Source: a virus
Virus record (IMG/VR): IMGVR_UViG_3300033571_004948
Location: 1 to 21,074 of that record
Strand: one strand, 5' to 3'
Length of the DNA: 21,074 nucleotides
The notes beneath the pieces were generated by a model that made no database searches, was not told where the DNA came from, and worked only from the letters and a program-made list of their open reading frames with translations. Below are positions 4,098-21,074 of the stretch, one piece after another; within the stretch, counting starts at the first letter, position 1, and each line of letters opens with the position of its first letter. The translations under genes and the position numbers were made by a program.

Positions 4098-5186
4098 TTT
4101 ATTTGTCCTTAATTAATCGTAGAGTTCTGAACCGTAAAACACTGTAGCAGACCACTGCACTTTTAGTGTACTATTGTCATGATCTAAACGACGATATCTA
4201 ATGCGACCTTCTGAAGTCACATACCATAAGTCATCATTTTCACCATCTGAAGAACCACTTTGAACTTCGGTGTGAGTAATATTTTGTTCACCATCATCGT
4301 CTACTATATGTATAGTTCCTATCCAAGTGCTATCGCCAGTATAAGCGTGGTATTTAATAATAGCACCACGGAAGTTTTCGCTGCTACCTGGTAAATCATT
4401 TTTGTCCCACCAAGTTAATGGTTCCCCACCTACAAGGGTTCTATAGTAAATTGTACCTTCACCAACTGGAAATCTAACTCCATCGTCCAAATAAATGTTT
4501 ACATGATCAGACCCCCAGCCAGCGACGGAACCAGTAGCCCAATCGTCTTCATTTAATGAAACCTGTACACGATAATAAGTAGTACCGTTTTCTAATTCTA
4601 TGAGCTCATCACGATTTGCACCTTCAACGTTAAGTCGAACATTACGAGTATCGTTTGAATTGCTTACTGTTGTAGTAGTGATTGTATTGCTTAATTCTTT
4701 AGAAGTTACGCTAACTGCTTTGTAACCGTAAACTTCTTCAATTCTGCGATTGCCTGGACTTGTTAGTTTAACACGACCAGTACCTTCTGCACTATCAAGT
4801 GTTGTGCCATCAGAGAATGTAATACCATCAACTCCATCACCGCCAATAATGTTGATGTGTGATATAGCATTGGTAACAGTTCGTTCTTCTGTGCTAGGTC
4901 CATAGATATAACCACTAATTATTTGACTACCACTGTCTGGTCCAGATCCACTAGTACCAATAGCGGTACTTGAGTTACCTGTAACAAGTAGACCAAATAT
5001 ACCGTCATTATAGACAAAACTGTATGATGAACCTGCGCCAAACGCTGCTTCTCCATCCGCTACAGTTTCGCCATTGTTGTAATTAATTTCATTTGCGAAA
5101 GAACTGTTGATGTAGTTACCAGTGTCGTACTCATCAAATCCACCATCACCGATTGAATTAGTTGGCCAAGGGAGTGTGGGAGGAGT

Positions 5187-5576
5187 TCCTGATACTTCAA
5201 GATTATAGACTTCTCCTAAAATTGAAACGTTGGTGACTGTTAAAGTAATGTCATTTTCTGGTGTAGTACCACCAGTAAGATTGTTTCCTGATAGAGTTAT
5301 TACATCACCTATTGCATAATTAAGCCCCAAGTTGCCAATAGAAACACTATTATTTGCTTGTACATTTAATATAGTCAATCCACTACCTGGCATGTTAGTG
5401 CCTGTTCGTGCAGTATAACCAACCAATTCTAAACTTGGAACACTCACTCCTTCAATAATTTCAAAACTACCAACTACGCCATTAGGTGCGTCAGTAATTC
5501 TAACAACTGCATCATTTTCTGGTGTAGTGCCTCCAAGGTCTGTGCCTAATATTTTAACTCTATGTCCAAATTTGTA
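5187..5576 (-). repeat. Two copies of a GGTTPEND beta domain
   Basis: Encoded residues 1045-1091 and 1130-1174 share the order Tyr, Gly-His/Asp, Ile-x-Gly, GGTTPEND, hydrophobic strand with VT or IT, then a short Gly loop. At DNA level the GGTTPEND codons are nearly identical, reading tcattttctggtgtagt on the plus strand near 5251 and 5513. This looks like an old tandem duplication. Confidence 0.65.
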
Positions 5577-7733
5577 ACCACTGCCACCTGCATTGTTTGC
5601 TGCTAGGAGTGCCTGAAACGTATATGGACCAGTCGGGAAAATAAAGATATTAGGGCTTACTTGGATTTGCCATCCATACTCTTGAGGGGTCACACTAGTA
5701 ACAGTAAAGGTTGTACCATTGTAAGTCATTTTACCGCCAACAGGAATACTTGCAGCATCAGAGCTAGTAGTGTGTATACTGTTGCTACCGTCGCTTTCTG
5801 CTCTTTGATCTACTGTTACAGTAGATAATCTTCCAACTATATAATCTCCATATTGAGTAGCAACAATATCAAATGTTGCACCGCTACCAGTCGGAGTTGC
5901 TGCTGTAGTTGGACCACCATTTAGTGTAGGTATATAGTTTCCATAAAACTCAAAGTCAGTGGCTACTCCGTTTGCGGCATCTGCTAGGCTTGGATAGTTG
6001 TCATAGAACGCTGCCTTCATAGCGTCAACTGATCGGTATTGTCCTGCAACACCATTTTCTAGAATTACATTATCAATAACTGATTCAGCAAATGCCACAA
6101 TATCGCCAATCGATTTCTCTCCGTTGACATCACCTACAACTACAAACATCGCTAGAATATCACTATCACCTACACCACCTACTTCAAAGAAGTCATCATT
6201 GCTATCTTCTGTGATTCCAATTTCAGTCACTGCTGGTTTGTTTATAACAACCTTAGTAACATTTCGTGTGTCAGTTTGTCCGTTACTGTGGAAGCCACCG
6301 TATGCAATTTGTAGACCTTTATATGCCGTACCAATGTTTGCTGGAATTGTAACTGTAGGTAATCCTTGTTCACCGCCACCTAATACCGAATTGCCATTGC
6401 TGTCTACAATGTCACCACCTACAGGTAGTTTTAGTCTTGTAGTACCACCCACATGTTCAAAATCAAAGTCTTTACCACCCTCGCCTGTGTTGACTTCAAT
6501 GTGAACACCTGAATTATCAACCCATACATAGTTATTGGTGCTTTCTAACTGTACGTATTCGTCACCAACGATGTTAACAAAATCACCACTGCTACTAATC
6601 TCATTGTCATCGAATGTAATATTGCCAGTGTTAGCATCACCACCGCCTGTTGAGTTAATGACCAGCGAATTATTAATAAAATCAAACGCAATGTTGTCGC
6701 CTGGTAGAATTTCAGTAAAGCTATTGAAATTAATTACGGAATATAACTGACTGCCTGTATAAACGGTGCTGCCGATACTATCGCCCAAAGTAATTACAGT
6801 CTGGTCGCGACCCTCATCGTAGGCAACATTAGTGACTAAAAAGAAGTATTGAGGGAAAAAATCTATAGAAGCGGTCGACCAAACCCTTTCACCTACATCA
6901 AACAGATTGGTACTGTCACCGCCAACGGTAATAGTGTTGGCAGTATTATCATATGTCATTACCGTCGATGCCACTGAACTAGGTCCACGGGCTTTGTTGC
7001 CTATTACTGAATTACCATCGGCATTAATAATATCTCCACCTGCGGGCAGTTGTAGTTTACCATCACCTCGGAAGTCCCAACCGTGTCTAACAGTTTCACC
7101 TGTGCGATCAAATGCGCTAATAGTTACAGCACTACGATTTTCGTTCAGCCAGTTTAATGCAAATCGTGCCCATTCTCCACTTTGAGTGCCAGAGTTAGTA
7201 TACAAACGAGCAAATGCTTCATCTTCATTAATTGGCATATTAATCCAACGAATGCTGGTTGTACCATCAGCACAATCTTGTACGAATCTACCACCAGTAG
7301 TACCTGTTGTGATATCACCAGGAGCAGTTAATGTTCCATTTTTACCTAATACCCAAGTATAACTGTTATCATCACCGACGCTATTATTTAATAAAATACC
7401 TTGATTTTTTTCAAACGAAATAGTTGAACTGTATAAAAAATCAGTATCAGGAGTAGGAGCATTATCTGTGTTAGTCCATCCCAAACCAGTACCAACTTCA
7501 GGTAATGTTAGCTTACCATCTGGAGTAAATGCCCATTCGTTTCTAGGACCAGCTCCACCCATTAAAATACTAACAGGAGTTTGTGTTATATTAGAACCTA
7601 CAAGCAACGTACCGTTATAGTAAGTGTTGGTAATTCTTTGTCCATCAGCATTTTCAACACCAGAAGATCCTGTGACTGTAATATCGGTAAATGTGACAGA
7701 ATTAGTTGTGTTTAAATCTTGGTCGAATGAAGT

Positions 7734-7907
7734 TCCATCTGCACCAGCTGGACCAGTTTCACCTTGAATACCTTGAATGCCTTGTGGTCCAGTTGGTCCT
7801 TGTGGTCCAGATGGACCAGTTTCACCTTGAATACCTTGAATGCCTTGTGGTCCAGTTGGTCCTTGTGGTCCAACTTCTCCTTGTATACCTGGATTACCTT
7901 GTGGTCC
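7734..7907 (-). repeat. Collagen-like Gly-X-Y tract, second block of the 1531-aa protein
   Basis: About 19 triplets encode GPQGxxG and GIQGIQGETGP units, residues 268-325. Within it a unit of roughly 54 nt (GPxGPQGPTGPQGIQGIQGE) occurs twice almost identically, which suggests recent slippage or unequal recombination. Confidence 0.9.
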
Positions 7908-8075
7908 TACGATTTGACCAATGTTATTCCATTCAGCATCTGTTAAATTCCAGAACCATAGGTTACCCCCACCTTCTGTAACAATCCATCCGTGCCCAGC
8001 AAAGTCTCCTGAATCTTCTGGTGCGGCAGGTAAATCTGCTATTAGTGCTTTAGTTCCTTGTAATGTTACTGCAAC

Positions 8076-8285
8076 ACCTTCGGCACCAGTGTCACCTTTT
8101 GGACCAGGTGCTCCTTGCGGTCCAGTTGGTCCTTGTGGTCCAGTTGCACCTTGAATACCTTGTGGACCAGTAGCACCAGTTTCACCTTGAATACCTTGTG
8201 GTCCAGTAGCACCAGTAGCACCTTGTGGTCCAGTAGCACCTTGTGGTCCAGCTGGTCCTTGTGGTCCTGGTGTTCCATCTAACCC
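8076..8285 (-). repeat. Collagen-like Gly-X-Y tract, first block of the 1531-aa protein
   Basis: About 23 uninterrupted Gly-X-Y triplets (residues 142-211) are dominated by GPQGATGPQG and GIQGETGATG units. Proline is mostly in the X position and Gln, Thr or Ala in Y, as in bacterial and phage collagens that lack hydroxyproline. Confidence 0.92.
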
Positions 8286-8288
8286 TGT

Positions 8289-9856
<1,568 letters not shown>

Positions 9857-9858
9857 GG

Positions 9859-10824
9859 TTAGCCTATAAAAAAGTCTAATGGCGCAGACTTGTTCATCAA
9901 ACTATCTTCTAATTCTTTAACCTCAGAAGATGCTTCATCGTAAAGTTTGTCGCCATCTAGAGTTACACCGCCTGGAAGTTGCAAACCAGAAAACTTTTTA
10001 AGATTAGTCGCCCATTGTTTTTTAAATAACGCTGTAACGTAATGCTTTAACCAAGACTCATTCCAAACTTTGGTGAACTCAGCAGGGTCTAGAGCACGGT
10101 ATCCTTGAACAATAATATAATCACCAAACACCACATCTGTGTCCCAATTTAAATCCAAATACAAACGATTTGTACGACGATTAAATCTAAACATCTGATG
10201 TCCATTTAGCTCTAAATCTAATAATGCCAAATGTCCCATAACAGTTTTATAGTAAATAATAGAAGTAGAAGTTAAATCGTACAAGTCATTTAAACGTAAC
10301 TGATATTGTAAATCAAAAATGTTCTTTGACGATGATGCCATACCAATAGAAAGAACTTTAGTTACACCGTAAACTAAGTCTGGAATAGCGATATATTTAA
10401 GATCGTATTCACGTAGGATTACTGGGGTTGTTCCAAGAACAGCAGTTTGACCAGAAGCAGAACCAGTAATAGTTTCTCCAGCAACAAATGTACCGTTGAC
10501 TTTTTTAACTAATAATAGAGTTCCTGTTGAAACTCTAGTAGTTTCACGAACCACTTCTGCTGTCGCCCCAGAGATTGCGCCTGTAACTATCTCAGCAAGA
10601 ACAAAGTTCTGTGCTACTGCAGTTGTAAGATTTATTTCAGAAGCACGAATTTGATGCTTCATGTAAATTTGTTCACTACCATCATAGTGATACTGTCGCC
10701 AATATTCTAGCGCTTCGTCTAAACGATCTTCTAGTTGCTCATCGTCAACGTTAATCTCGAGCACAGGTGCTCCCAACGCACGAAGCGCATATTGTTTTAA
10801 ATCTTCTCTAGATCCGACAGCCAT
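9859..10824 (-). CDS. 13: Neck protein gp13 (head completion) with inserted beta-rich segment
   Basis: This 321-residue protein is the partner of gp14 in the neck. Homology to T4 gp13 (309 aa) is visible in the N-terminal EDLKQYALRALGAPVLEINV and DEALEYWRQYHYDG stretches, in IIVQGYRALDP, in the WLKHYVTALFKKQW helix, in LPGGVTLDG (T4 LPGGVTIDG), and in the C-terminal PLDFFIG end. Residues about 69-136 are not part of that pattern. They form a Gly/Thr/Ala-rich insertion with two related units, VTGAISGATAEVV and TFVAGETITGSASGQTAVL, of a kind found as add-on domains in many phage structural proteins. Without it the protein would be about 253 residues. An AGGATTA ribosome binding site precedes the start. 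The upstream gap holds an AT-rich hairpin. Confidence 0.93.
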   Translation of the reverse strand: MAVGSREDLKQYALRALGAPVLEINVDDEQLEDRLDEALEYWRQYHYDGSEQIYMKHQIRASEINLTTAVAQNFVLAEIVTGAISGATAEVVRETTRVSTGTLLLVKKVNGTFVAGETITGSASGQTAVLGTTPVILREYDLKYIAIPDLVYGVTKVLSIGMASSSKNIFDLQYQLRLNDLYDLTSTSIIYYKTVMGHLALLDLELNGHQMFRFNRRTNRLYLDLNWDTDVVFGDYIIVQGYRALDPAEFTKVWNESWLKHYVTALFKKQWATNLKKFSGLQLPGGVTLDGDKLYDEASSEVKELEDSLMNKSAPLDFFIG

Positions 10825-12036: not shown

Positions 12037-14838
<2,802 letters not shown>

Positions 14839-14862: not shown

Positions 14863-14870
14863 TATTTATT
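14863..14870 (-). promoter_or_regulatory. Putative T4-type late promoter for the 933-aa fibre gene
   Basis: The minus strand reads AATAAATA, fitting the NATAAATA late-promoter consensus of T4-like phages (T4 itself TATAAATA). It sits 25 nt before the ATG at 14838, in the 42-nt gap after the glycan operon, leaving room for a short leader with an AGGA ribosome binding site. Confidence 0.6.
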
Positions 14871-14880
14871 CTTTTTAACT

Positions 14881-15630
14881 TTACTCTCTTCGTTCTATGT
14901 CCTCTTCAACGCAAGATTCACCGTATTGAATTTCAACGATTTTACAGGGAGAACTAAATGGATTAGTTAGTTGATGCCATCCCTCTACTGGGATTTGCAT
15001 CATTTCGTGTAAATTCTTTTGTTCTTGTCCAGTGTCTGTTTTAACTACACATTGCCCCTCAGAAACAAACCAGATTTCAGATCTTTTAAAATGCTTCTGC
15101 ATACTTAAAGACTTACCTGGATCTACTGTAAGTTCCTTAACTTTCATTCCTGGAACTTCGTGCAGCACTCGATAGTAGCCCCATTGACGTTCTGTCTTTG
15201 GAGCTTTCCATTCTTGAAGAATCCATGAAGAGGAGTTCATTTTATTCTCGCCACCAACACCGAACACAAACTCTACGTTTTCGATATTAGTATCCATCTC
15301 TGGAATATTTTCTTTGGTACGGTCTCCACCATTTGCAAAAACGATAGTGGTTTTAGGGAATAGTTTACGTACTTGTGTGATTGCGTCTTTGGCGGATCCA
15401 TCAGAATCATCAAAACCTATCGCAGTCATAACATCTTTAAGATTGTTAATAATGTTTAATCGTTCTTCGAATGGCATAAATGGTTGTCCCTTTTTACGGA
15501 CTAACCATTGATCAGAATTAACACCAACAACCACACGACCAAGTTGTCTGGCTGCTTTGATGTATTCGATATGACCTGAGTGTAGTGGGTCAAATCCGCC
15601 AGTTACTAGTATAATTTTATCGTCACTCAT
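14881..15630 (-). CDS. Nucleotidyltransferase (cytidylyltransferase-like)-cupin fusion
   Basis: This 249-residue protein begins at the ATG at 15630. Residues 5-140 are a TagD/RfaE-C-type nucleotidyltransferase: GGFDPLHSGH contains the HxGH nucleotide-binding motif (17-20), followed by VVVGVNSDQWLVRKKG. These enzymes join CTP or ATP to a phosphorylated polyol or sugar. Residues 147-246 match the cupin of type II mannose-6-phosphate isomerases (WGYYRVLHEVPGMKVKELTV, PGKSLSMQKHFKRSEIWFVS, GWHQLTNP). The usual HHH...EH metal site is reduced to H180-F-K...E185-I, so isomerase activity is doubtful and a binding role is possible. AGGA six bases before 15630 supports this start over the ATG at 15645. 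It overlaps the preceding gene by 8 nt and is the last gene of the glycan operon. The substrate is unknown. Confidence 0.85.
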   Translation of the reverse strand: MSDDKIILVTGGFDPLHSGHIEYIKAARQLGRVVVGVNSDQWLVRKKGQPFMPFEERLNIINNLKDVMTAIGFDDSDGSAKDAITQVRKLFPKTTIVFANGGDRTKENIPEMDTNIENVEFVFGVGGENKMNSSSWILQEWKAPKTERQWGYYRVLHEVPGMKVKELTVDPGKSLSMQKHFKRSEIWFVSEGQCVVKTDTGQEQKNLHEMMQIPVEGWHQLTNPFSSPCKIVEIQYGESCVEEDIERRE

Positions 15631-16324
15631 TTCGTATCCTATCATTTAGTTTAATAACATTTTCAATTAATTTTGAATCAACATTATGAAGGTCAAAATA
15701 TAATTTTAACCATTTAGTGTCTTTTGGAAAACATTTACCACCAAACCCTAATTTACCATCTGGTCCTGGAACATCAAAATGTGTATTACCCAGTCTAGAA
15801 TCTATCTTTAAAACTTCTTTAAATTCATTATAACTAATTCCATCCTGTGCACAGGCTTGATATAAAGAATTTAAAAATACAACCTTTGTTGATAGAAAAG
15901 CATTTGTAGTGACTTTCATTAAAGACGCAATTTCTGGTTTGGTAACAACAGCGTTATGCATCTCTAATTTAGAAATTGATTTTAATTTTTTAAACTGATC
16001 TTGCGTTCCACCAAATACAATTTGTATTGGATTTAGTGCATCGTATTCCCAATTTGCCTCGACCAAAAACTCAGGATATACTGCATAATTTTTATTTTGT
16101 ATTTTATTTGGAATTAGAGTAGATCTAATAATTACACAGGGATGCTCTTTTAATTCTTCAAGGTATGAATCTAATACATCATCAAAACAACATACAAATA
16201 CTATATCTGCAGAAATATAGTCAGCAAATAATCCCTTTGGTGGGTCATGCCATTCTATATCTTGATTGAGAGTTAAGGCTGTTGCTTTACCAACAAACCC
16301 ATTACCAATAATAACTACTTTCAT
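15623..16324 (-). CDS. Short UDP-glucose/GDP-mannose dehydrogenase-like protein
   Basis: This 233-residue protein carries family hallmarks: a Rossmann start (GNGFVGKA, 7-14), RSTLIP (67-72), YPEFLVEANWEYD (83-95) with Glu85 in the expected place, K137 and N141 in the central helix, and LGFGGKCFPKDT (192-203) with the catalytic Cys198. Typical UDP-glucose 6-dehydrogenases have about 390-450 residues. Here the N-terminal domain is compact and the protein ends about 30 residues after the Cys motif, so the C-terminal sugar-nucleotide domain is missing. Oxidation of UDP-glucose to UDP-glucuronate is the family reaction; whether this short form still does it is uncertain. Its ATG overlaps the stop of the epimerase gene (ATGA), implying coupled translation. 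Confidence 0.85.
   Translation of the reverse strand: MKVVIIGNGFVGKATALTLNQDIEWHDPPKGLFADYISADIVFVCCFDDVLDSYLEELKEHPCVIIRSTLIPNKIQNKNYAVYPEFLVEANWEYDALNPIQIVFGGTQDQFKKLKSISKLEMHNAVVTKPEIASLMKVTTNAFLSTKVVFLNSLYQACAQDGISYNEFKEVLKIDSRLGNTHFDVPGPDGKLGFGGKCFPKDTKWLKLYFDLHNVDSKLIENVIKLNDRIRNE
15637..15640 (-). promoter_or_regulatory. Ribosome binding site fixing the start at 15630
   Basis: AGGA with a six-base spacer lies before the ATG at 15630, within the end of the preceding gene. It favours this start over the in-frame ATG at 15645. Confidence 0.65.
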
Positions 16325-17217
16325 AATAACTTATTTCTAATATATTCTTCAATATAAATGGTTGGTTTCCATCCTAAAACAGTTTTTAATTTTAAGTTGT
16401 CTGCTAAAGTCTCATAGGATTCACCTATTCTAGGCTCAATAAATTTTTGATTTTTAGAAATCATATTTGCTAATTCTAATACTGAATTATTTGTTCCTGT
16501 ACCAACATTAAATATTTCGCCATAACAATTATGATCAACTTGCATGGCTAATATATTAGCTTGAACAACATCATTGACGTGGGTAAAATCTCTACGTTGG
16601 GTTCCGTCTGGTACAATAGTTAAAGGCTCATTGGCTTCATGCTGTCTTAAAAATAATCCAACGACTGGAGCGTACTGGCCACTCGTTGGTTCTCTGTCCC
16701 CATAAACATTAAAGTATCTAAAGATTGTTGTTTTTAAACCAAATAGTTTTGTATACATCTTACACAATTCCTCACCAGCAACTTTAGATACTGAATAAGG
16801 ATTTAAACAATCATTTGGCATATCTTCTTTTAACGGACATGGATTAATTAATCCATATGCAGAAGATGTTGATGAATACATAACTTTTTTGACGCCAGCT
16901 TCACGTGAACATTGCAATACTGTTTCTGTGCCTAACACATTAGTTTTTACTGCTTGAATTGGATTGTTAATGGAAGGTTGGATTCTTGATTCTGCAGCTA
17001 GATGAAACACATAATCAATTCTATCATATAACTTTCTAGTGTTATCATAATCGCAAATATCATAATGATAATATATTGCATTGTTATTATAGTAAAAACT
17101 TTTATGATTTTCCGCTGATAGATTATCTATCACCAAAACCTCGTAACCCATGTCAACTAATTTATCAGTTAACGTTGAGCCTATAAATCCGCAACCACCT
17201 GTAACTATAACCCTCAT
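16321..17217 (-). CDS. NAD-dependent sugar-nucleotide epimerase (GalE-like extended SDR)
   Basis: This 298-residue extended short-chain dehydrogenase has the NAD-binding GGCGFIGS (7-14), D31-N acidic residue after the second strand, HLAAES (72-77), SSTSSAYG (115-122) with the catalytic Ser/Thr, and the Y141-SVS-K145 catalytic pair. The RYFNVYGDREPTSGQYAPVV segment and the RRDFTHVNDV segment are typical of UDP-glucose or UDP-GlcNAc 4-epimerases and dehydratase relatives. It is slightly shorter than GalE (about 330-340). The most economical role, given the neighbouring mutase, is interconversion of UDP-glucose and UDP-galactose, or of the uronates made by the downstream dehydrogenase. Its ATG overlaps the mutase stop by 4 nt, and a NATAAATA late-promoter match lies 26 nt upstream inside the mutase gene. 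Confidence 0.88.
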   Translation of the reverse strand: MRVIVTGGCGFIGSTLTDKLVDMGYEVLVIDNLSAENHKSFYYNNNAIYYHYDICDYDNTRKLYDRIDYVFHLAAESRIQPSINNPIQAVKTNVLGTETVLQCSREAGVKKVMYSSTSSAYGLINPCPLKEDMPNDCLNPYSVSKVAGEELCKMYTKLFGLKTTIFRYFNVYGDREPTSGQYAPVVGLFLRQHEANEPLTIVPDGTQRRDFTHVNDVVQANILAMQVDHNCYGEIFNVGTGTNNSVLELANMISKNQKFIEPRIGESYETLADNLKLKTVLGWKPTIYIEEYIRNKLL

Positions 17218-18260
17218 TGCTCAAATCCTTTAAATTGTTTTATATTTATGGTATTATTTTCATTAATAAATTTTTTAGCAGTTGATAGAGCTGATGCAAT
17301 CGCCTGATGCATATCAATATAAACATATTGTCCGCATCTGCCTATAAACTTAACATTTTTAGGTATCATGGCTTTATACTGATTATAAAGTTTTCTATTA
17401 TTTCCGTCTAAGTCTTTAACTGGATAATATCTTTCCATATTATTGTCCTTATAATCACATGGTTCTTCATATGTTAATGTAGTATAATCACTATTTTCTC
17501 CATGATTTTTCCAATTTTTCCACTCAACGATACGAGTGTATGGACCAGTATTTGTAAAATTAACAGAGGGTGTTGGTAAAACCTTAGTCATGGGTAATGT
17601 GGTTGTGTGAAACTTTATAGAGCGGTAAGGTAATTCACCGTAACAAAAATCAAAATATTCATCAATAGGCATACTATTGAACGTGAAATGATATTTATTT
17701 TCCATAGACTTATCGAATGGAGTTGATAAATTTACTGAAATATTTTTATGATTTAATATATTCTCAAATAATTTTGTATATCCACCCAGTGGCATCATTT
17801 GATATTCATCGTTAGGAAAATATAATTCATTTAAATCATCTCTAAAGGAAACTCTTTGTGTGACAGAATTATCAATCTGTTCCAATGGCATTCCCCACAT
17901 CTTTTCTGAGTACGGTCTAACAAATGTTTGTATTAAATTTTCTTCACCAACAATATCTTTTGTCTCTTTATTGACAGGCAGTGTTACATATTGCCCAGAA
18001 GATAATTGAGCCTTTACCTTTAGTTTAAAATCAAACCACTCACCAAATTGCAATAACCAATCAACAACTTCCTTATTATTTGTGTGAAATGCGTGTGGTC
18101 CATACTTATGAATTAGTATGCTATGTTCATTGGTATAGTCAAAACAATTTCCTGCAATATGATTTCTTTTATCTATTATATCGATAATATATCCGTGTTC
18201 AGCCAGTTCTCTAGCTATTACGGATCCAGAAAAACCAGCACCAACAATTAAAATTTTCAC
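17214..18260 (-). CDS. glf: UDP-galactopyranose mutase
   Basis: This 348-residue flavoenzyme converts UDP-galactopyranose to UDP-galactofuranose using reduced FAD. Visible features are the FAD-binding GAGFSGSV (7-14) followed by IIDKRNHIAGNCFD, the HKYGPHAFHT signature (51-60), YSEKMWG (117-123), FRDDLNELYFPNDEYQMMPL with GGYT, the YYPVKD segment (278-283), and the C-terminal GRCGQYVYIDMHQAI (307-321), equivalent to the family GRLG-x-Y-x-YxDMDQ motif. Length is near the usual 365-390. The start codon is GTG at 18260, and its first bases overlap the stop of the preceding glycosyltransferase (GTGA). UGM is fairly specific in sequence, so the assignment is strong. It points to galactofuranose in the product of this operon. 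Confidence 0.95.
   Translation of the reverse strand: MKILIVGAGFSGSVIARELAEHGYIIDIIDKRNHIAGNCFDYTNEHSILIHKYGPHAFHTNNKEVVDWLLQFGEWFDFKLKVKAQLSSGQYVTLPVNKETKDIVGEENLIQTFVRPYSEKMWGMPLEQIDNSVTQRVSFRDDLNELYFPNDEYQMMPLGGYTKLFENILNHKNISVNLSTPFDKSMENKYHFTFNSMPIDEYFDFCYGELPYRSIKFHTTTLPMTKVLPTPSVNFTNTGPYTRIVEWKNWKNHGENSDYTTLTYEEPCDYKDNNMERYYPVKDLDGNNRKLYNQYKAMIPKNVKFIGRCGQYVYIDMHQAIASALSTAKKFINENNTINIKQFKGFEQ
17243..17250 (-). promoter_or_regulatory. Putative internal late promoter upstream of the epimerase
   Basis: The minus strand reads CATAAATA (NATAAATA) 26 nt before the epimerase ATG at 17217, the same geometry as the site before the 933-aa fibre gene. It lies inside the mutase coding region. In AT-rich DNA a chance match is quite possible. 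Confidence 0.4.
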
Positions 18261-19093
18261 TTTTTATTTTTATATTCGATTGAAGTTAAAAGCTGATGTT
18301 GTATTTGTTCTATTGAAAACTCGCTATACAAATAATAATCTAATCCAGAATCGTCGGGATCTCTGTTAAGTATGGATCTGTATAGATCACTAATAATATT
18401 TTTTCTGTCTTGATGTTTGTTAAAAATATATTCACATAACATTCGATGGTGTTTTGGGTGTACTGTAGATATGTTACTTCCATGTCTTCTATAATGTAAA
18501 TATCTTCCTGTCAATCTAGTTAATTTATATCCAGCTTTATATGCTCGAATCCAAAATTCCCAATCCTCATATGTTCCTGGCATATTTTCGTCATAACCCC
18601 CCAGTTTAGTCCACATTGATTTTGGATACATTGAAGAATTCATAATAACATTTTTGTGGATAATATTATCCCATAATTCATTACCATTTGGCCAAACTTC
18701 TCCTGTTGGCACCATTAGCTCATTGCAATAATAATTTTTGGAAGTCACGATTGTGGATTCATCAATTTTATTGATACTATCTACTAACCAATCTTTTCCG
18801 TATATCACATCATCAGAATCTAATGGTAATATGTATTCGCCATTAGAATTGGATATCCCAGTATTTCTTGCGGTGGCTGGACCTTTATTAGACAGATGTT
18901 CATGATAGTAAATGTTATTGTTTGTGTATTTTTTCAAAACAGATTTTACATCTTCTGGACTACAATCATTCACTACTATAATTTCGTAGTTTTGGTAGTT
19001 TTGATTAAGAATACTGTCTATGGTTTCAGATAACCAGTGAACATTTTTATAAACGGGGACTATTATTGATACTAATGGCAAATTTATGTTCAT
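18257..19093 (-). CDS. Family 2 glycosyltransferase with C-terminal DUF4214-like segment
   Basis: This 278-residue GT-A enzyme has VSIIVPVYK (8-16), EIIVVNDCSPED (37-48), the GPATARNTGI segment (71-80), LDSDD (91-95) as the DXD metal/nucleotide site, and GGYDENMPGTYEDWEFWIRA (165-184) with the ED-x-E/D catalytic region. A short C-terminal tail (237-274: LYRSILNRDPDDSGLDYYLY, then FSIEQIQHQLLTSIEY) matches the pattern of DUF4214, a small helical module of unknown function often attached to glycosyltransferases and surface proteins. There are no membrane helices, so the enzyme is cytoplasmic. Donor and acceptor cannot be told from sequence; UDP-galactofuranose from the adjacent mutase is a candidate. 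Start and stop overlap neighbours by 4 nt. Confidence 0.88.
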   Translation of the reverse strand: MNINLPLVSIIVPVYKNVHWLSETIDSILNQNYQNYEIIVVNDCSPEDVKSVLKKYTNNNIYYHEHLSNKGPATARNTGISNSNGEYILPLDSDDVIYGKDWLVDSINKIDESTIVTSKNYYCNELMVPTGEVWPNGNELWDNIIHKNVIMNSSMYPKSMWTKLGGYDENMPGTYEDWEFWIRAYKAGYKLTRLTGRYLHYRRHGSNISTVHPKHHRMLCEYIFNKHQDRKNIISDLYRSILNRDPDDSGLDYYLYSEFSIEQIQHQLLTSIEYKNKK

Positions 19094-19833
19094 TTACTTA
19101 ATTGATCCAGAAAAGAGTTGCACGGAAAATTATTTTTATCTAAATTGTAATTATTAATTAACATACTATCCCATAAATGAATTAAATACGAATTTTTGAT
19201 TCTCATAGTCACTTCATCTTTATATTTTGCATCAAGTAATTTATAAGATTCTTTATAATGTATTGGATAAAAATAATTAGATTCGCATATTTCATTTTGT
19301 AGTGAGTTTTTCTCAACAAACTTAGTCATTAAGTTAGGTCCAATAATTCCCCAAAATGGTAAATTATTATTATGTTCGTTACATATATTTTGCGCAATAT
19401 TTAATAAATCACTTGCTATGGGTTTACTCAAATATAGTGTTGCGCCATTTATTTCAGTGTCTTGATATGCAGCAATAATACTAGCATTTTTTCTTAATGA
19501 TTCAAAATGACTACTGTCCTTTAAACAATAGCAATCTGTATCAAACCACCACCCAGGATATTGAGATAATAGTTTGTATCTAAATATGTCAGAAAAAGCT
19601 GCTAAACTTTTTTTGATAATACCATTAAATGGTTGACTATATGCATACAATAAAGTTTCATCTAATATTAATTTAGCATCACAAGATTCTACTCCATCAA
19701 TTTGTATATTATTGTATGACCAAAGTTTTACATGAAAACCTTTATTAACAAATGATTTTATACACATAATTTCTAATTTACTAATTGGTCCATGCCAAAA
19801 AAAGTTAGCTACTTCACGTTCCAAAGTCTGCAT
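19090..19833 (-). CDS. GT32-like glycosyltransferase (DXD sugar-binding type)
   Basis: This 247-residue protein from the ATG at 19833 opens with ANFFWHGPISKLEIMCIKSF and VKLWSY, the usual beginning of the glycosyltransferase family that includes Och1 and alpha-1,4-galactosyl/GlcNAc transferases. The central AAFSDIFRYKLLSQYPGWWF is followed by DTD (98-100), the nucleotide-sugar metal site, and then a GATLYLSKP region, an INGA-type acceptor loop, and a C-terminal SYLIHLWDSM, where the His-x-Trp is characteristic. No membrane segment is seen. The ATG at 19833 is preferred over a TTG at 19851; either overlaps the upstream gene (20 or 38 nt). No strong ribosome binding site is visible, so translation may depend on coupling. 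The specific sugar and target are unknown. Confidence 0.82.
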   Translation of the reverse strand: MQTLEREVANFFWHGPISKLEIMCIKSFVNKGFHVKLWSYNNIQIDGVESCDAKLILDETLLYAYSQPFNGIIKKSLAAFSDIFRYKLLSQYPGWWFDTDCYCLKDSSHFESLRKNASIIAAYQDTEINGATLYLSKPIASDLLNIAQNICNEHNNNLPFWGIIGPNLMTKFVEKNSLQNEICESNYFYPIHYKESYKLLDAKYKDEVTMRIKNSYLIHLWDSMLINNYNLDKNNFPCNSFLDQLSK

Positions 19834-21073
19834 GACTAATTCTTTCAACAAATGATTTAGAAAATATTCTGTGGTTATTGCTATTAGCCAATGGGCGTGT
19901 TTTTTCTAAATCGCTGTCATTAAATTCTGTGAACGCACATAGAGGATATGCTAGATGCACATTATCTAATGGTAAATGATTCCATACATTATCAGATTCA
20001 GTCCATACAGGATAATTCATATCTAATATCTTCTTAGCCATATCTAAAGAATATAAACCACAAGTAGTTCCAGAGACATAATCTAAAGTCATTGACGGAT
20101 AATGAGGTTTACATAACCCAATATCACCAACATATTGATTCGGTTTTTCTAAATATGTTACAGATTGTTGTTCTTTACAAACTATTGGAACATTTCTTAA
20201 TTTAACTTTTCCATTTTGCCATTGGTTTGATGACCAATATCCTAACAACACTAATTCTGTATTAACTTTAGTAGAATCAAAGTGTTTTATAAAATTGTGT
20301 AAATTAATATTAGGTATACAATCATCTTCCATCACTATAGCGTATGGGATATTTTCATCTACCATTTTTCTAAAAATTTTTAAATGAGATAATGCGCATG
20401 CGATCTCATTCGGCATTAACTCTCTTTTAGTTTCAATTGCCTTTTCTTTATTATAATATTCTGAACTAATATTATTTTGTAACTCACTTCCATCAACAGC
20501 TTCAATAAAAGTATAGTTCTTAATTTTCATTACATTTAGATTATTAATTAACTTATGTTTTCTATCAACTCTTCTCGCTAAATTAATAATAAAAATTGGT
20601 AAATCATTATTCAACTCTTCTTGAGGAAATTGATTTATTTTAAACTTATTTAAAAATTCCTCTGATTTACTCATCTGTGATTGAATATCAACCAAAGAGA
20701 ATTTAGAATTGACATAATGATTTAAACCACTCGGGTCAGCTTCTCTATCTAATATAAGTTTATATAAATGTTCTATTTGTTCTTTTCTATTCATAATCTT
20801 TAATTTATTATAATACACTTGTGTTTCATCGCTTTTGCGCTGTCTTATTTCACTAGGAGCTTTAGTTATAGACCCTTCATTATACATTAATCTCTCACCT
20901 CTTATAGTAGAGTCATCATCTACATAATATGTTGCTTTATTGTGAATTAAATCACACGATAAGATTAAATCTTCCCATCCAAATGTGGTTTTATATCCAC
21001 CAATTTCTTTTAGTTTTTTAGTTTTTATTGCAGAGTTTAATATACCACCAAATGAAAAATACGATAAATTATA
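19814..21073 (-). CDS. Multidomain glycosyltransferase: GT-A C-terminal part, DUF4214-like linker, GT25 (5' end outside window)
   Basis: The frame is open from the window edge (first complete codon at 21073) to the stop at 19814, giving 419 codons. The first ATG is at 20887, but the 62 codons before it encode SFGGILNSAIKTKKLKEIGG and FGWEDLILSCDLIHNKATYY, which look like the end of a GT-A domain of the galactosyltransferase C-terminal type (GG...IGGY...F-GWE/D), so the gene very probably begins outside the window. Counting from the ATG at 20887, residues 36-81 are a DUF4214-like segment (LYKLILDREADPSGLNHYVN), and residues 97-320 are a GT25 (LPS galactosyltransferase-type) domain with IFIINLARRVDRK, IEAVDG, EIACALSHLKIF, AIVMEDDC (metal site) and SGTTCGLYSLDMAKKIL. 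A start at 20887 cannot be fully excluded. The upstream segment is not in the conventional ATG-initiated reading of this gene and is easy to miss. Confidence 0.85.
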   Translation of the reverse strand, partial: YNLSYFSFGGILNSAIKTKKLKEIGGYKTTFGWEDLILSCDLIHNKATYYVDDDSTIRGERLMYNEGSITKAPSEIRQRKSDETQVYYNKLKIMNRKEQIEHLYKLILDREADPSGLNHYVNSKFSLVDIQSQMSKSEEFLNKFKINQFPQEELNNDLPIFIINLARRVDRKHKLINNLNVMKIKNYTFIEAVDGSELQNNISSEYYNKEKAIETKRELMPNEIACALSHLKIFRKMVDENIPYAIVMEDDCIPNINLHNFIKHFDSTKVNTELVLLGYWSSNQWQNGKVKLRNVPIVCKEQQSVTYLEKPNQYVGDIGLCKPHYPSMTLDYVSGTTCGLYSLDMAKKILDMNYPVWTESDNVWNHLPLDNVHLAYPLCAFTEFNDSDLEKTRPLANSNNHRIFSKSFVERISHADFGT

Positions 21074-21074
21074 A

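Follow-up and report, generated by a model that had tools for sequence, protein, structure and literature searches.

The closest described counterpart of the locus reported here is the 'host recognition cluster' of pelagimyophages, a hotspot between VrlC and gp14 that holds fibre genes, glycosyltransferases, rfaE and UDP-glucose dehydrogenase genes, and for which modification of the host O-chain was argued (PMC7029224). Another T4-like system with its own candidate nucleotide-sugar genes is RB69-type DNA arabinosylation, whose genes lie between the DNA polymerase and uvsX and for which no mutase is named (PMC6024577). Here we analyzed a 21,074-base IMG/VR virus record, IMGVR_UViG_3300033571_004948 (hereafter the window, meaning the whole stretch at its full length), in which positions 14881-21073 carry a glycan cassette of seven overlapping minus-strand genes. 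We consider it very likely that this cassette belongs to the fibre/neck hotspot, is exchangeable and contains a likely route to UDP-galactofuranose (UDP-Galf). Glycan genes are common in T4-like aquatic phages, and the cassette offers a compact, testable case with a rare donor sugar.

A seven-gene glycan cassette

The cassette genes, in the order in which they are read, are the following.

19814..21073, minus strand: GT25-type glycosyltransferase, 5'-open (Pfam Glyco_transf_25 1.5e-29, DUF4214 1.1e-6)
19090..19851, minus strand: GT32-like (Gb3_synth / capsule-type) glycosyltransferase, probable start 19833 (Pfam Gb3_synth 4.7e-9, Gly_transf_sug 3e-4)
18257..19093, minus strand: GT2 glycosyltransferase with a C-terminal DUF4214 at about 18269-18403 (Pfam Glycos_transf_2 2.3e-27, DUF4214 1.9e-4)
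17214..18260, minus strand: UDP-galactopyranose mutase, compact form (Pfam GLF 3.6e-51; TIGR00031 285 bits, cut-off 304)
16321..17217, minus strand: GalE-like extended SDR epimerase (Pfam Epimerase 5.3e-58; best solved relative 4zrm)
15623..16324, minus strand: short UDP-sugar dehydrogenase-like protein with NAD and central domains (UDPG_MGDP_dh 7.3e-17; short phage relatives)
14881..15645, minus strand: nucleotidyltransferase-cupin fusion (CTcup), probable start 15630 (CTP_transf_like 1.7e-12, MannoseP_isomer 9e-22)

All reading frames are intact, that of the GT25 gene being open at its 5' end where the window stops, and all family assignments lie far above chance in Pfam. The gene set that the sequence-only reading had named agrees with these matches and coordinates. 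Its overlaps of 4-20 nt also hold: four junctions overlap by 4 nt, and the probable starts at ATG 19833 (GT32-like) and ATG 15630 (CTcup), judged by homologous starts in the related loci L265 and L068, give 20 nt and 8 nt. The three glycosyltransferase types are real, but the modules number at least four, as the GT25 open reading frame (ORF) begins with an apparent GT-A tail. The dehydrogenase-like protein has its family match but no C-terminal UDP-binding domain.

Recurrence beside the fibre and neck genes

From its ORFs and their PHROG and Pfam matches we assign the window to a T4-like phage; the phage is uncultured, and the window represents a fragment of its genome. Its terminase fragment shares 52-55% identity with terminases of T4-like phages, among them Melnitz, S-SCSM1 and HTVC008M. 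On the minus strand the cassette runs GT25, GT32-like, GT2, mutase, epimerase, short dehydrogenase and CTcup, and is followed by a collagen fibre, two small ORFs, gp13, gp14, a small ORF, a second collagen fibre, an ORF, a gp15-like gene and the terminase. Its border and the landmarks beyond it are as follows.

12037..14838, minus strand: fibre protein with Mtd_N, collagen repeats and an Ig-like domain, at the cassette border (Pfam)
9859-10824, minus strand: gp13 neck gene (PHROG head-tail adaptor Ad2 1.4e-40; synteny in 80 relatives)
9125-9856, minus strand: gp14 neck gene, with gp13 (9125..10824) a conserved landmark (synteny in 80 relatives)

We collected the 80 relatives by their gp13, which is 72-89% identical; their terminases reach 99% identity. 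They are metagenomic contigs, many of them short, so that absences are limited by the sequence available. CTcup and any epimerase-family domain are absent from 14 of 14 long close-relative records; the CTcup null had no positive control in those records, while tblastn found CTcup in L163 and L068. GT2 occurs in one of the 14, and among 35 further records solely in L068. Where enough sequence is available from close relatives, as in two contigs of ~162-164 kb, the cassette parts searched for are absent, and the cassette is therefore accessory.

Other T4-like phages carry different cassettes at the same site. In L068 (gp13 43-48% identical), three genes stand immediately before gp13: a GT2-DUF4214 gene, an epimerase gene and a CTcup of 67% identity. 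L163, L171 and L174 (gp13 72%) have a 49%-identical CTcup and a kinase-like gene in this place, preceded by a sulfotransferase in L163 and L171 and by a methyltransferase in L163. In L265 the genes ahead of an Mtd_N-type fibre are a GT25 (56% identical), a pair of GT32-like genes, an epimerase, a methyltransferase of the FkbM type and a CTcup of 55% identity. The position beside fibre and neck genes is thus real and recurs in L265, L068 and L163, and it is in part meaningful. The gene-order comparison that the sequence-only reading had proposed comes out mixed: cassettes occupy the same site in these three phages, but the window cassette is accessory and its searched parts are missing from close relatives. 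As a separate observation, the sulfotransferase and weakly APS-kinase-like genes that flank CTcup before gp13 (L163:2021-4903) hint at sulfated glycans in L163.

Collagen itself is a weaker element. Both window fibres contain collagen-like repeats (12037-14838 and 4113-8726), but runs of at least six triplets occur in none of the 80 relatives, and none was found in the examined stretches of L265, L068 and L163. A specific link of the cassette to collagen fibres, as previously suggested, is weakened by cassettes that occur without such runs, and so is collagen as the glycan acceptor.

The likeness to the host recognition cluster of pelagimyophages and cyanomyophages (PMC7029224) is close. In both, a hypervariable island with fibres, glycosyltransferases and rfaE-type and UDP-glucose-dehydrogenase-type genes precedes T4-like neck genes. 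In the window, the cassette, a fibre and two small ORFs stand before gp13/gp14, fibres lie together with glycosyltransferase and sugar-nucleotide genes, and the content is variable, being absent in the close relatives searched and different in L265, L068 and L163. The window cassette is another island of this already described type. It differs in adding the mutase and UDP-Galf route, DUF4214-bearing glycosyltransferases and collagen-rich fibres; neither 'mutase' nor 'galactofuranose' appears in the main text of PMC7029224.

A comparison with L265 indicated how such cassettes might move. The two sequences are close from the second fibre to the terminase (fibre 82%, gp15 79%, terminase 93%) and diverged in gp13 (39-48%), gp14 (48%), the cassette and its fibre. 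Because the diverged part lies next to a close flank, fibres, neck genes and cassette appear to have been exchanged as a block, an indication that swapping at the fibre site involves cassette and neck genes at once. In the shared glycosyltransferase gene, DNA identity falls from 100% to ~60% within ~400 bases, which we read as a mosaic junction. The enzyme families, the conservation of the mutase active site, the position and the accessory and mosaic nature of the cassette are all properties at the level of sequence.

These data also bear on whether the genes are loose metabolic cargo with no selected fibre link, inserted at a merely permissive site. Their absence from the close relatives searched would fit cargo, as would the occurrence of these gene families in many contexts. 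This explanation is nevertheless the least probable of those we considered, given that several phages use one site for different cassettes, that the genes keep intact reading frames with tight overlaps, and that the hotspot is a published recurring feature (PMC7029224).

The sequence upstream of the window is probably represented by contig 3300033571_004124 (42 kb). Its baseplate-like and fibre-like genes are followed by a GT32 gene, an unknown ORF, an FkbM methyltransferase gene and, last, the beginning of the fused glycosyltransferase gene, and its terminal bases are those with which the window (read on the minus strand) and L265 begin. The missing 5' part of the GT25 gene probably lies at its end, and the contig is likely the window's own upstream part. 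VrlC was not identified among its genes, and its join to the window rests on the shared contig ends. Its baseplate genes share only ~28-40% identity with their counterparts in the close relative L097.

Sugar-nucleotide enzymes

The mutase GLF domain scores 174 bits against a Pfam cut-off of 26. Y117, W122, R136, R243, Y278/Y279, Y312/Y314 and D316 are invariant in an alignment of the family, and the protein retains the residues lining the active site of solved bacterial mutases; we take the roles of these residues to be those established for the family. The score against the NCBIfam equivalog TIGR00031 falls below the cut-off (284.9 vs 303.75 bits), possibly due to a deletion of ~31 residues that the enzyme of Aeromonas phage Aes012 possesses. 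On the Pfam match and the conserved residues we assign the protein to the mutase family. Mutases of Aeromonas, Agrobacterium and Streptococcus phages and of phage C48C1 belong to the same family with its catalytic residues, the identity to the window protein being 53% for C48C1 and ~39-44% for Aes012. Relatives in bacterial genome records reach 62% identity, which suggests that the compact form is not confined to phages.

The best solved relative of the epimerase is the UDP-glucose 4-epimerase 4zrm (3.6e-55). As it scores below the GalE cut-off of NCBIfam TIGR01179 (169.9 vs 262.3 bits), we name it GalE-like only. A route from UDP-glucose through UDP-galactopyranose (UDP-Galp) to UDP-Galf is plausible, since the mutase active-site residues are conserved. 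The sequence-only reading that the phage makes and transfers galactofuranose is therefore tenable for synthesis, but none of the glycosyltransferases could be assigned as a galactofuranosyltransferase.

The dehydrogenase-like protein begins with GxGxxG, contains the catalytic-cysteine motif GGKCFPKD and stops after the central domain, so that the C-terminal UDP-binding domain of UDP-glucose 6-dehydrogenase is missing. Searches by peptide patterns gave no close viral relative; relatives did appear in loci retrieved otherwise. The form is recurrent, as proteins of ~255-285 aa are found in other phages, several adjoining epimerase and CTcup genes. CTcup is widespread, with at least about 600 viral relatives. 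It scores below the NCBIfam equivalog cut-offs for HldE domain II (61 of 182 bits) and type II mannose-6-phosphate isomerase (70 of 373 bits), and its likeness to both is at the domain level only.

Glycosyltransferases and DUF4214

The GT25 ORF starts with ~75 aa resembling the end of a GT-A domain, followed by DUF4214 (~20642-20794) and the GT25 domain (~19985-20599), which passes Pfam Glyco_transf_25 with 103.7 bits against a cut-off of 24. A single-sequence structure prediction of this fusion gave no usable model (predicted local distance difference test, pLDDT, 32). The GT32-like protein has homologues of 37-41% identity in L265 and no meaningful PDB relative. The pairing of GT2 and DUF4214 domains is also seen in the L068 homologue. 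An alignment of five DUF4214 modules, taken from the window, L265 and L068 and accompanying GT2, GT25 and GT32-like domains, has 13 invariant columns; a literature search returned no informative report on DUF4214.

Procollagen galactosyltransferase shares the GT25 family, and COLGALT1 is the best solved match to the window protein (E 1.5e-6). This match is weak, covering ~95 aligned residues, and other GT25 enzymes score nearly equally (E 2e-5). This weakness, and the existence of cassettes that lack collagen runs, led us to set aside the collagen-specific role that it suggested.

In a hydropathy scan, none of the cassette proteins showed a strongly hydrophobic segment of the membrane type, and the cassette genes seen include neither a flippase nor a polymerase nor a polyprenol-phosphate transferase. 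Both absences fit a soluble acceptor.

Mutase relatives and DNA modification

The nearest relatives of the mutase indicated a second possible use of UDP-Galf in phages, apart from the fibre-side cassette of the window. The tree places the window mutase within a phage-only clade (99/88; 95/80 for the inner set), and two genome-derived records are neighbours. In 11 of the 12 other members phrog_14998 adjoins the mutase, while the twelfth is truncated at this place; seven of the 12 also have a C5-cytosine methylase with uvsX. In phage C48C1, a TET/JBP gene, phrog_14998 and the mutase follow in succession. Loci with mutase and phrog_14998 include L004:8892-13642, L006, L008-L012, L257:7564-11011 and L258:7697-9879. 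We regard the mutase and phrog_14998 with a C5-methylase or TET as a candidate module for DNA hypermodification with a furanose. A glycosyltransferase role of phrog_14998 is a guess from gene context, because its model from four sequences is poor (pLDDT 51) and Foldseek found no match at E < 0.001.

It could accordingly be asked whether the window phage moves UDP-Galf or a related furanose onto hydroxylated bases of its own DNA. Besides the clade, three close relatives with a TET/JBP dioxygenase near uvsX (L319:7103-8428, L320:6070-7341 and L321:6289-7656) speak for this. We nonetheless judge it unlikely. Neither phrog_14998, a C5-methylase, uvsX nor TET/JBP lies near the window mutase, which is part of the fibre-side cassette, whereas the C48C1 and Aes012 mutases adjoin phrog_14998. 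No base-hydroxylating or hydroxymethylating enzyme was found in the window, a genome fragment which, in contrast to RB69-type arabinosylation, contains no known DNA glycosyltransferase. In the close relatives no thymidylate-synthase-type enzyme (PF00303), C5-methylase or phrog_14998 was detected. To our knowledge, GT2, GT25 and GT32-like types are not among the DNA glycosyltransferases.

In the CTcup loci L015-L094 an accompanying multi-copy family comprises 286 ORFs in 67 loci (e.g. L021:3456-4262); its only match is a weak one to DUF6716 (putative glycosyltransferase).

Promoter and expression

One regulatory element marks the border between cassette and fibre.

14863-14870, minus strand: T4-type late-promoter-like motif AATAAATA, placed 32 nt ahead of the ATG of the fibre gene and 3' of the cassette

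A perfect TATAAATA stands 35 nt ahead of the fibre gene at the equivalent junction in L265. The claim of a late promoter rests on this placement, because the motif is not enriched window-wide (two found, 6.4 expected). The earlier statement that the collagen fibre follows the cassette under a late promoter is correct for the fibre gene, but the promoter is not the cassette's: no such motif was found heading the cassette, only the one between cassette and fibre gene. On contig 004124, a strong terminator-like hairpin (-25 kcal/mol, z -4.4) with a T-rich stretch after it lies ahead of the first cassette gene.

Acceptor of the glycan

What follows on the donor sugars, the transfer order and the acceptor is our inference. 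The epimerase would supply UDP-Galp, which the mutase would convert to UDP-Galf, and CTcup and the short dehydrogenase might help to make a second activated sugar. Soluble glycosyltransferases, partly modules joined via DUF4214, would then build a short glycan. The acceptor would most likely be a virion protein from the adjacent fibre genes, and swapping fibre and glycan together would alter the phage surface. We give a fibre or other virion protein as acceptor a probability of about 0.42. The sequence context points this way: cassettes of differing content stand at the same site in L265, L068 and L163/L171/L174, and fibre-like genes lie on the other side of the cassette too, on contig 004124, which overlaps the window end.

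Several observations weigh against a virion acceptor. Relatives of the mutase and CTcup mostly lie elsewhere in phage genomes, often beside uvsX; a UvsX-like gene is within 4 kb in 43 of 85 CTcup loci, where UvsY-like and gp32-like genes are also frequent, and our detector picked up no fibre-like ORF in 80 CTcup loci. With no late promoter of its own and a terminator-like hairpin upstream, the cassette may not be co-expressed with the fibres. GT2, GT25 and GT32 families are, moreover, typical of lipopolysaccharide (LPS) and capsule synthesis, and the hotspot with similar genes was explained by host O-chain change (PMC7029224).

The last points, and the missing late promoter, favour a cassette that changes the infected cell's LPS or capsule, perhaps so that competing phages are kept out. 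This has been proposed for glycan clusters of pelagimyophages and cyanophages, and larger clusters of this kind occur in cyanophages S-SSM7 and S-PRM1. Such a role is possible, if somewhat doubtful. It would not require block exchange with fibre and neck genes, and no membrane or lipid-carrier enzymes are encoded in the cassette as seen. In our ranking the virion fibre is slightly favoured, with the host envelope close behind.

A fuller version of the virion-protein reading is improbable as a whole. In it, a galactofuranose glycan made by shuffled, DUF4214-linked glycosyltransferases would decorate the phage's own fibres, fibres and glycans would be exchanged between lineages, and the mutase would have been captured from a phage lineage that probably uses UDP-Galf to hypermodify DNA.

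Contig ends and minor observations

The window end at 21074, the start of L265 and the end of L280 share identical terminal bases within the fused glycosyltransferase gene. The simplest reading of these common ends would be an assembly branch at a conserved stretch. In L265, a 76-aa ORF (L265:2874-3104) is a likely recombination scar in which the beginning of an epimerase is fused to the C-terminus of a GT25, with 86% identity to the window GT25; an 83-nt epimerase-start repeat recurs 996 nt on. In two relatives (L103:4139-6349 and L101:4327-6204), the ORF between the small ORF on the gp14 side and gp15 looks, by eye, like a subtilisin-type protease.

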